Virus record (IMG/VR): IMGVR_UViG_3300031974_001788
Coordinates: 1-35,457 of that record
Source: a virus
Length of the DNA: 35,457 nucleotides
Strand: one strand, 5' to 3'
Shown one piece after another: positions 12,562 through 15,445 of the stretch (the first letter of the stretch is position 1; each line of letters begins with the position of its first letter). The notes under the pieces are model-generated. The model made no database searches. It saw only the letters and a program-made list of their open reading frames with translations, and was not told the DNA's origin. A program made the position numbers and the translations under genes.

Positions 12562-12592
12562 TTGTTTACTCGAGAACTTCTAAGTACCTTTG
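12562..12592 (+). promoter_or_regulatory. Promoter for tRNA-Arg (TTG-N20-TACCTTTG)
   Basis: The -33 TTG at 12562-12564 and a perfect -7 box TACCTTTG at 12585-12592 are separated by 20 nt. This is the arrangement described for the primary sigma factor of Bacteroidota. The tRNA begins 14 nt after the box. It is the best promoter in the window and a strong pointer to the host phylum. Since no U-tract terminator follows the tRNA, the same transcript may continue into the structured RNA region and early genes. Confidence 0.78.
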
Positions 12593-12679: not shown

Positions 12680-12683
12680 CTTG

Positions 12684-12712
12684 TGGGCTAAAAGGCGATT
12701 TGTTGTAGCCCA
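12684..12712 (+). other. Hairpin directly after the tRNA
   Basis: Perfect 7-bp stem TGGGCTA/TAGCCCA with a 15-nt loop, five bases after the tRNA 3' end. An A-run, not a T-run, follows, so it is not a classic rightward terminator. It may be a processing signal or the first element of the downstream structured transcript. Confidence 0.45.
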
Positions 12713-13061
12713 AAAAAGGAAACACATACATGTCCCTCCGGGAAAAAAGTCCTGAGAAATGTGTGGGGTGGGGATTATGTCTATGTGTACACGTGCGTCA
12801 CGTTGACCGGAAGTCGATTATTCCTATGGGGGGGGTAGGGTTTGCACGTTTGTATTACAGAAAGTTCCAGCGTTTTTGCTAATACGATTGGGTGAATTGT
12901 CAATAGTAAGTTGGACTACCTATGCAGGGTAGCCGAACAACCTCGTCCCCTGCTCTCTACGACCAAGAACTGACCCCACAAACGGGGTTGGCACGGACGT
13001 TGCAACGCGCGTCTACAACATTTTTCTGACCTGTGCAAACACACAAATGTTAAAATTCTGA
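12713..13061 (+). other. Non-coding stretch with scattered hairpins
   Basis: No credible protein gene. Visible by eye: ACACAT/ATGTGT pairing (12722-12764); ACGTG-CGT-CACGT near 12791; a hairpin around 12913-12931 (CTACC/GGTAG with TATGCAG in the loop); CCCC-ACAAAC-GGGG near 12974-12987; and AAAAT-TCTG-ATTTT near 13053-13066. The 3' end becomes A/T-rich just before the 21-bp repeats. This could be part of the same RNA as the folded region downstream or part of a replication origin. Confidence 0.4.
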
Positions 13062-13124
13062 TTTTCTCGTCGAAGCTATTTGGCTGTTCGTCGATTGAAT
13101 CCTGCTCTTCGTCTAAAAGTTGCT
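13062..13124 (+). repeat. Three direct repeats with 21-bp period (iteron-like)
   Basis: CGTCGA at 13068, CGTCGA at 13089 and CGTCTA at 13110 start exactly 21 bp apart, two helical turns. Copies 2 and 3 share GCTnTTCGTCnA; copy 1 is more diverged upstream. An A/T-rich stretch precedes them and the structured RNA follows. Same-face spacing suits a replication initiator or repressor array. On the other strand the period equals seven codons of a weak frame, so a chance coding repeat is not excluded. Confidence 0.45.
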
Positions 13125-13133
13125 TGACAATTT

Positions 13134-13545
13134 GGAGCGGTAGCACCCCTCTATGTACTATGCCATCGTGTTGCAACGGCAACCGCTCTCGGACTATTGA
13201 CGTACTGCCTGTCGCTGACTAAACGACCCGCTCCACGGAGCGCACCTCGCACCCTGTATGCAGAACGCAGGGTGGGCAAACCACTCACCGCAGAGCGCAG
13301 TTCTTTGACGTATTGAAACTACCTACCACTTGGGCCGACAAAACCCGCCACACCTGTGGCCATCGGAGTTGGGATGGGGGAAGAAGTAACGCAAACACTA
13401 TTGACTACACCGCCATGATACGAGCCATCTCGGGATAGGGAGGATGTCCACTCCCCATGGCGTCAGCAACGGCACAGGCGTGCCACCTCGGTAGGGTGGT
13501 GGGGGTTCGACTCCCCCCCGTTGTTCTAACCCGTGCTTCGGCACA
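13134..13545 (+). ncRNA. Candidate structured non-coding RNA
   Basis: A dense series of perfect helices runs through this gene-free stretch. GGAGCGGT (13134) pairs with ACCGCTCT (to 13189). CGCTC-CACG-GAGCG forms a hairpin at 13229-13242. CACCCTG/CAGGGTG pairs across 13250-13274 and GCCAC-ACCT-GTGGC at 13347-13360. A three-way junction is closed by CGCCATG (13411-13417) with CATGGCG (13456-13462), holding CGAG-CCAT-CTCG and GGGAG/CTCCC hairpins. A 60-nt tRNA-like fold follows (13466-13525) and finally a GTGC-TTCG-GCAC tetraloop hairpin (13533-13544). The cUUCGg loop and the TTCGA T-loop fix the sense strand as plus. Large ornate RNAs (GOLLD, ROOL) are known beside phage tRNAs, but I cannot match this to either. 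5' end and promoter are undefined. Confidence 0.6.
13466..13525 (+). ncRNA. 60-nt tRNA-like element lacking a normal set of arms
   Basis: Acceptor-like GCAACGG/CCGTTGT (7 bp, one G-U), a tiny CAC-AGGC-GTG hairpin, CCACC-TCGGTAG-GGTGG, one linker base, then a canonical T-arm GGGGG-TTCGACT-CCCCC. The 7-nt loop TCGGTAG resembles a D-loop (adjacent GG) more than an anticodon loop, since a U33 equivalent is missing. The element may thus keep the acceptor/T/D elbow without an anticodon arm. It lies 35 nt before the first early ORF. Possible substrate for RNase P or CCA-adding enzyme; inference. Confidence 0.55.
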
Positions 13546-13559
13546 CAAACCCCAACATC

Positions 13560-14009
13560 ATGTTGTTTACTGCAACCGCCTTTCAGGCATTCACCACGAC
13601 CCGCGACAACCACGAAGTCGCATTGTCAAACCGCTTCGAGTTCAGCTACGACCTCGACACCAACAACAAGCAGACCCGCGACCTCGTCGTAGGCACAATG
13701 CTCAACCGCTTGTTCCGCTACCTGTCCTTGCAGAAGCAGACAGGCGCACGCTTCACCAACCTGTCGCACCCTGTCCTCTTGCAGTTCAAGGTCGGCAAGT
13801 CAACCATCGACCTCCGCGACATCGAGGAGCGTCTGCAAGCCACCTTCAAGGTTGGCCACACACCCAAGGCCAAGCGTCGATTCGCCAAGCGCGTTGTGGC
13901 TGTCGTTGAGTTCCTGCTCGAAGCCCCTGTGCAGATGACTGCCACCGAGTTGCTCGCCTCCTTGGAGGAGCAAATCGCAGAGGATATGGTCGCTGAGTTG
14001 ACCGCATAA
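13560..14009 (+). CDS. First early protein, hypothetical, 149 aa
   Basis: MLFTATAFQAFTTTRDNHEV opens the protein. A mixed alpha/beta N-terminal half follows, then a Lys/Arg-rich segment (HTPKAKRRFAKRVVAVVEFL, about 98-117) and an acidic helical C-terminus. No family recognised. I start at the ATG at 13560 rather than the in-frame GTG inside the UUCG hairpin. Arg codons are almost all CGN. Its position first in the rightward block, between two tRNA-like elements, is unusual and suggests early, highly expressed function. Confidence 0.7.
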   Translation: MLFTATAFQAFTTTRDNHEVALSNRFEFSYDLDTNNKQTRDLVVGTMLNRLFRYLSLQKQTGARFTNLSHPVLLQFKVGKSTIDLRDIEERLQATFKVGHTPKAKRRFAKRVVAVVEFLLEAPVQMTATELLASLEEQIAEDMVAELTA

Positions 14010-14088
14010 GTGGACTAAGTTAGGATGTAGACCACAGGTGTACTTGGAGGACGCTATGCGTCGGGGGTTCGAATCCCCCTGCACCACA
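14010..14088 (+). other. Second tRNA-like element (possible tRNA remnant)
   Basis: Begins right after the preceding stop. A perfect T-arm (GGGGG-TTCGAAT-CCCCC, 14063-14079) follows a GACGC-TAT-GCGTC hairpin (14050-14062) that resembles a type II variable arm. GGTGTA (14037) can pair with TGCACC (14080) to give a compact 50-nt fold. A full-length 79-nt tRNA reading gives poor D- and anticodon-arm pairing, so it is either a decayed tRNA or a second mini tRNA-like punctuation element. It ends 20 nt before the next start codon. Confidence 0.5.
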
Positions 14089-14993: not shown

Positions 14994-15029
14994 TCAACGA
15001 TAGTCGGCGGACGTTAAACGCAACCTAAA

Positions 15030-15197
15030 CCGTGGCTCCGACCCTGTAAGCATGGCGAAGACGGAGCCGAGATATATGCCATGCCACCCGATACCCTGTG
15101 GGCAGAATAACAATCAGGGTAGAGGATGGGCAAGGGGAGCAATGCCACTGAACGGGTGACGCCTAGACGTTCAGGCCCCACCCAACCTCGCTTTTTT
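15030..15197 (+). ncRNA. Pseudoknotted small RNA with intrinsic terminator
   Basis: Two perfect interleaved 7-bp helices, GGCTCCG (15034-15040) with CGGAGCC (15062-15068) and GCATGGC (15050-15056) with GCCATGC (15078-15084), define an H-type pseudoknot. A TACCCTG/CAGGGTA hairpin (15092-15121) follows. Then comes a composite stem: GAGG, GGG and GGGG (15122-15137) with CCCC, CCC and CCTC (15176-15189), capped by CTGAACG (15148-15154)/CGTTCAG (15168-15174). It is followed at once by CTTTTTT, an intrinsic terminator on the plus strand. No ORF of interest overlaps it, so it looks like a discrete RNA or a terminating leader/riboswitch. No known class recognised. Confidence 0.65.
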
Positions 15198-15217: not shown

Positions 15218-15445
15218 ATGGCTTACTCACACAAGTATGACGTAACCAACCGCCTCATTGACTACGAGTGCGGACACCTCGACGACAGGGGTGTGCTTCG
15301 CCTGTTCTCTGAACTCATCAAGACAGGCATGGCTTGGAATCTGCAAGGACACTACGGACGCACAGCGCAAGCACTCATCGACGATGGGTGGCTCGAAGCG
15401 GACGGCAATTTCGGAATCAAGGTAGACACTCTACCACTCAACTAA
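15218..15445 (+). CDS. Uncharacterised phage family protein (DUF7417-like), 75 aa
   Basis: MAYSHKYDVTNRLIDYECGH, then VLRLFSELIKTGMAWNLQGH and YGRTAQALIDDGWL. I recognise this short conserved phage protein (I believe DUF7417), common in marine and enteric phage early regions and of unknown function. Full length. It is the first gene after the terminator of the pseudoknotted RNA and has the leader ttaattcaatacaATG, typical of this block. Confidence 0.8.
   Translation: MAYSHKYDVTNRLIDYECGHLDDRGVLRLFSELIKTGMAWNLQGHYGRTAQALIDDGWLEADGNFGIKVDTLPLN

Follow-up and report, generated by a model that had tools for sequence, protein, structure and literature searches.

A conserved pseudoknotted RNA of about 190 nucleotides lying between genes of related phages

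A compact structured RNA, whose helices covary in related phages and whose family is previously uncatalogued and not in Rfam, was found between two genes of an IMG/VR virus record of 35,457 bases (this whole stretch is called the window hereafter). Its 5′ motif is followed by an H-type pseudoknot formed by P1 and P2, then by hairpin P3 and a long composite stem comprising P4 and P5. Our preferred reading, to which we give about an even chance, is that this is a discrete structured RNA of about 190 nt that is released from a polycistronic transcript and acts as an RNA in its own right. The features of the region are as follows.

12562..12592, plus strand: candidate Bacteroidota-type promoter TTG-N20-TACCTTTG, a pattern match kept in L007, L023, L024 and L026
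14595..14993, plus strand: upstream gene phrog_2355 (unknown function), stop codon 9 nt 5′ of the RNA
15003..15193, plus strand: structured RNA core of about 190 nt, of a family outside Rfam, matching covariance model R1 with 224.5 bits
15003..15020, plus strand: 5′ motif GTCGGCGGACGTTAAACG, 18 nt, identical in nearly all homologues
15034-15040/15062-15068, plus strand: helix P1, first half of the pseudoknot, GGCTCCG/CGGAGCC, perfect 7-bp Watson-Crick
15050-15056/15078-15084, plus strand: helix P2, interleaved with P1, GCATGGC/GCCATGC, perfect 7-bp Watson-Crick
15092-15098/15115-15121, plus strand: hairpin P3, perfect 7-bp, core 15094-15098/15115-15119
15122..15189, plus strand: composite stem P4, made of 15122-15125/15186-15189, 15127-15130/15181-15184 and 15134-15137/15176-15179
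15148-15154/15168-15174, plus strand: terminal hairpin P5, perfect 7-bp, arms invariant
15192..15197, plus strand: U6 tract 3′ of P4 with the geometry of an intrinsic terminator, GC preceding the six T
15218..15445, plus strand: DUF7417 gene downstream of the RNA (Pfam PF24192, E 9e-24)

The initial annotation had described four 7-bp helices, two of them interleaved, and all were present where it had placed them. The composite stem that it saw running into a U-tract is there as well, P4 (strands GAGG.UGGG...GGGG/CCCC.CCCA.CCUC, 15122-15137/15176-15189) being followed by GC and six T. Its argument that such an arrangement is unlikely by chance was only partly borne out. A pseudoknot of this kind occurred in 39 of 5000 dinucleotide shuffles (0.8%) and three or more 7-bp helices in 153 of 5000. 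One further pseudoknot of the same kind was found in the window (13646-13714, within a gene), and the minimum-energy fold of the RNA is ordinary (z −0.74); minimum-energy folding alone did not recover the pseudoknot. Taken as a single sequence the RNA is thus only moderately unlikely, and it is the covariation among homologues that is decisive.

Homologues were gathered through the DUF7417 protein and with DNA patterns in viral contigs. The element was found in L001-L003, L005, L006 and L009 (window lineage) and in L022, L027/L028, L031, L036, L037 and L091, the latter group being all that wider patterns in viral contigs added; the remaining wide-pattern matches were discarded as coincidental k-mers, mostly within genes, or as the 18-nt motif alone. 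Over the full R1 model, homologues were present at 13 other loci, several of which are the same contig. About a dozen phage contigs carry homologues. A BLASTn search against GenBank phages and plasmids returned no homologue of the element.

The covariation alignment comprises 11 distinct sequences, few and closely related. Over the pseudoknot, P3, P4 and P5, 97.8% of the cells were paired and 13 pairs had changed on both sides (n=11). The covariation score was 0.288 versus a shuffled mean of 0.155, none of 500 shuffles reached it, and all slid controls collapsed; shuffle counts, these and those above, are not to be read as probabilities. P1 was paired throughout (100% in the 11 sequences) with five of its seven pairs changed on both sides, the variants being GGCTCCG/CGGAGCC, GGCTCTG/CAGAGCC, GGCCTCA/TGAGGCC and GACCTTG/CAGGGTC. 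Two compensatory pairs were seen in P2 (GCATGGC/GCCATGC, GCATGGT/ACCATGC, GCGTGGA/TCCATGC, GTGTGGA/TCCACAC), the seventh pair of which is lost in L003 and L005. The core of P3 changed from CCCTG/CAGGG to CCTTG/CAAGG. At least four lower pairs of P4 were compensatory together with one upper pair (GGGG/CCCC to GGAG/CTCC), and an A-A mismatch of this stem is replaced by A-T or G-C in the divergent members. P5 was found in 11 of 11 sequences with no variation, hence it gives no covariation signal. Since compensatory changes affect both helices of the knot, P3 and P4, the helices are real, and the discrete pseudoknotted RNA of the initial annotation is supported by its homologues. That the helices had arisen by chance in intergenic sequence, as the ordinary folding energy and the shuffle frequency of the knot might have allowed, is extremely improbable: the covariation and the conservation of the element apart from its flanks refute it.

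The region gave no match in Rfam 15 at the gathering score; relaxing the limit to E≤10 added nothing but a spurious miRNA hit to the other strand. No tmRNA was called in the window or its homologues by ARAGORN or Rfam. The sequence GAGAUAUAUUCC resembles what we take to be the J8/7-P7 region of a group I intron; this identity was rejected because neither P4-P6 nor P8 would fit, and a relaxed cmscan found nothing. Like GOLLD and ROOL, the ornate phage RNAs (PMC12286853; partly general knowledge), the RNA is structured, noncoding, phage-borne and unlinked to a specific protein gene, but it is far smaller (190 nt) and has no Rfam match to either. It shares a small RNA pseudoknot with the ToxI-type RNAs of type III toxin-antitoxin systems, of which phage-encoded mimics are known (PMC3475682); ToxI, however, forms tandem pseudoknot repeats beside a ToxN-family endoribonuclease, whereas the RNA described here is a single pseudoknot with no tandem repeats, and no ToxN-like neighbour was noticed.

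The RNA behaves as a discrete module. In L022, about 213 nt around it align to the 5-kb window region and the flanks have no DNA similarity; L008 has the same flanks as the window and carries a short GC hairpin in place of the RNA. Conservation of the RNA far exceeds that of the surrounding proteins: its DNA identity is 85% in L027 and 91.5% in L022, where the proteins are mostly 38-66% and 38-53% identical, respectively. Such a high identity could reflect strong constraint, transfer, or both. Model R1 detected a single copy in each of the nine searched records that have the RNA, and none in the related records L004, L007, L008, L010 and L014, some of which are fragments. Because it is absent from these five records, the RNA may be dispensable or replaceable.

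Wherever it occurs, the RNA is intercistronic and co-directional with its neighbours, yet what follows it changes. The next element is DUF7417 in the window lineage, a lipoprotein-like ORF in L009, an 82-aa ORF in L022 and a 72-aa ORF in L091; in L027, L031, L036 and L037 it is another tRNA-like RNA and no ORF. The U-tract varies likewise, with T4-T6 in the window-type lineage and L022 (T6 in the window), T4 in L091 and a broken tract (TTTTCT) in L009; it is absent from L027, L031, L036 and L037, four of the 11 aligned sequences, and the fold is kept. A simple terminator scan of the window did not list the stem with this U-tract. Since the tract is lineage-specific, termination does not seem to be the conserved function, and of the proposed terminator ending the geometry holds in the window lineage but is not kept in all homologues. 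The further suggestion of a terminating riboswitch or attenuator for DUF7417 and the downstream early operon found no support, because the same RNA precedes different ORFs or tRNA-like RNAs. Although the stem and U6 stand directly 5′ of DUF7417 in the window lineage, we regard this mechanism as very unlikely, no covarying antiterminator pairing having been noticed.

The constant position between co-directional genes would also suit a role in cis. Whether by insulating, by signalling processing or by partial termination, the RNA would then fix where the upstream mRNA stops and where the downstream leader starts. This is a possible but clearly less probable explanation than an RNA acting in its own right. 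It is consistent with the terminator geometry of the window lineage and with the comparable spots of relatives, which hold hammerhead-like sequences, anticodon-less tRNA-like elements or the GC hairpin of L008, several of them with a similar leader. However, a pseudoknot with invariant loops exceeds what such punctuation needs, there is one copy per genome, and in four members the next element is an RNA rather than an ORF.

In L027/L028, L031, L036, L037 and L091, a tRNA-like element ends 5-6 nt before the RNA. These elements possess an acceptor stem and a T-arm with no recognisable anticodon loop, and ARAGORN does not call them tRNA. The window itself contains two tRNA-like elements with acceptor stem and T-arm and without anticodon arm, at approximately 13466-13526 and 14036-14086; they are conserved in the related records L007 (2030 and 2585), L008 (371), L020, L023 and L024. 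Hammerhead-like sequences (CTGANGAG...CGAAAC...GTC) were observed shortly 5′ of genes at L007:2815, L010:661 and L031:4042 and in L036 and L037 (minus strand). The L007 sequence scores 25.7 bits against RAGATH-1-hammerhead, below the gathering score. Several comparable intercistronic spots then carry a similar leader, TCAAAC..TTAA..CAAT..ATG. From the tRNA-like and hammerhead-like elements near genes, these phages seem to fill their intercistronic spots with compact RNAs.

Such surroundings raise the question of catalysis. In an HDV-like layout, two pseudoknots are nested, and P3 and P4 lie between the P1 and P2 strands. This fold was rejected here, as only 5-6 nt separate the 5′ strand of P2 from the 3′ strand of P1, and 9 nt the 3′ strands of P1 and P2, too short for P3 and P4. 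Theta ribozymes are HDV-like and are proposed to trim the tRNA 3′ trailer; they lie no more than 5 nt from tRNA ends in phages whose predicted hosts are mostly Bacteroidota (PMC10879173). They are the nearest analogue in position, not in fold: both are pseudoknotted RNAs in phages of Bacteroidota hosts, and in its divergent members, though not in the window, the present RNA starts a few nucleotides after the 3′ end of a tRNA-like element, but here the RNA is about 190 nt long, the upstream element lacks the anticodon arm, the knot has no HDV P3/P4 and cleavage is hypothetical. By analogy, an unrecognised self-cleaving ribozyme might remove the trailer 3′ of the tRNA-like element that precedes it, or cut the polycistronic RNA. 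The spacing in divergent members, the hammerhead-like sequences between genes of relatives, the complex pseudoknotted fold with invariant unpaired bases and the precedent of theta ribozymes near phage tRNA ends (PMC10879173) speak for this idea, which we nevertheless hold to be unlikely: no Rfam ribozyme matches, inspection of the sequence reveals no HDV-like P3 and P4 with the knot, the window lineage has no tRNA-like element directly 5′ of the RNA, and the RNA is large for a self-cleaving class. Phage hammerhead ribozymes differ from it too: the RNA has no CUGANGA/GAAA core, and what it shares with the hammerhead-like sequences of relatives is a comparable place between cistrons. Equally unlikely would be that the RNA is a new class of self-cleaving ribozyme, or an RNA cofactor, whose partners are tRNA-like RNAs lacking the anticodon arm, in a phage transcript rich in RNA elements and punctuated by ribozymes.

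An RNA acting in its own right is favoured by the covarying fold, the discrete module, a conservation above that of the proteins, the changing downstream context, the single copy per genome and, in divergent members, the start just after a tRNA-like element. Against it stand the five related records with no copy and the comparable spots holding other RNAs or a plain hairpin, which fits processing in cis; the alignment is small, its 11 sequences being close relatives, and the high identity could also stem from horizontal transfer. In the proposed pathway, a rightward transcript probably starts at the promoter that precedes tRNA-Arg (~12592) and includes the RNA between two of its cistrons. Its 3′ end would be made at the U6 tract in the window phage; in relatives devoid of the U-tract, the RNA beside anticodon-less tRNA-like elements would presumably be freed by tRNA-type processing. 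Rather than switching the gene that follows, it would most likely be a stable RNA that binds a factor of the host or of the phage; the sRNA and host-factor decoy proposed in the initial annotation are both possible. Phage noncoding RNAs are poorly catalogued. This one is a compact pseudoknot RNA outside Rfam with covariation support, and it is linked both to relatives that bear hammerhead-like sequences and to tRNA-like elements that lack the anticodon arm. Its short length suits assays of self-cleavage, protein binding and counter-defence, and the covariance model can be used for finding members.

The start of the transcript probably lies at the promoter-like site 12562..12592, as judged from its sequence pattern. 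Two promoter-like sites of Bacteroidota type, divergently oriented, lie in window segment 12519-12592 and are kept in L007, L023, L024 and L026. The window also encodes a BT4734-like/DnaB-like replication protein, which matches mainly phages of Flavobacterium, Cellulophaga and Nonlabens, the best match being a Maribacter phage. This protein and the TTG-N20-TACCTTTG sites before tRNA-Arg, kept in relatives, suggest a Bacteroidota host. Directly 3′ of tRNA-Arg extends a conserved noncoding region of about 780 nt (12680-13460; L007:1230-2025, L023, L024, L026) with no Rfam match. In an alignment of five sequences from tRNA-Arg to the gene, 37 predicted pairs had changed on both sides, some within the terminal tRNA or tRNA-like elements, and the region is a candidate large structured RNA.

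The 5′ motif GTCGGCGGACGTTAAACG has a wider distribution than the RNA. It was also found in unrelated phages and in genomes of Spirochaetes and Clostridia, mostly just 5′ of a start codon; the loci (L029, L030, L032-L034, L047-L057, L071-L077) include 5′ leaders of unrelated phages and of Spirochaetaceae genes, and some Spirochaetaceae genomes have four to five copies. The number of matches is near random expectation (~5-8 by our estimate); what hints at a genuine leader motif is where they lie, the repeated copies in some Spirochaetaceae and one paired stem change (TTCGGCGGAA). Its reading as an integron attC site (GTTRRRY) was rejected, as no partner half was seen upstream and ATT variants occur in Spirochaetes. 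An invariant short frame, ATGCCACTGAACGGGTGA (MPLNG*, window 15143-15160), overlaps P5 in all aligned homologues; a coding role was set aside, the invariant P5 hairpin being the simpler explanation.
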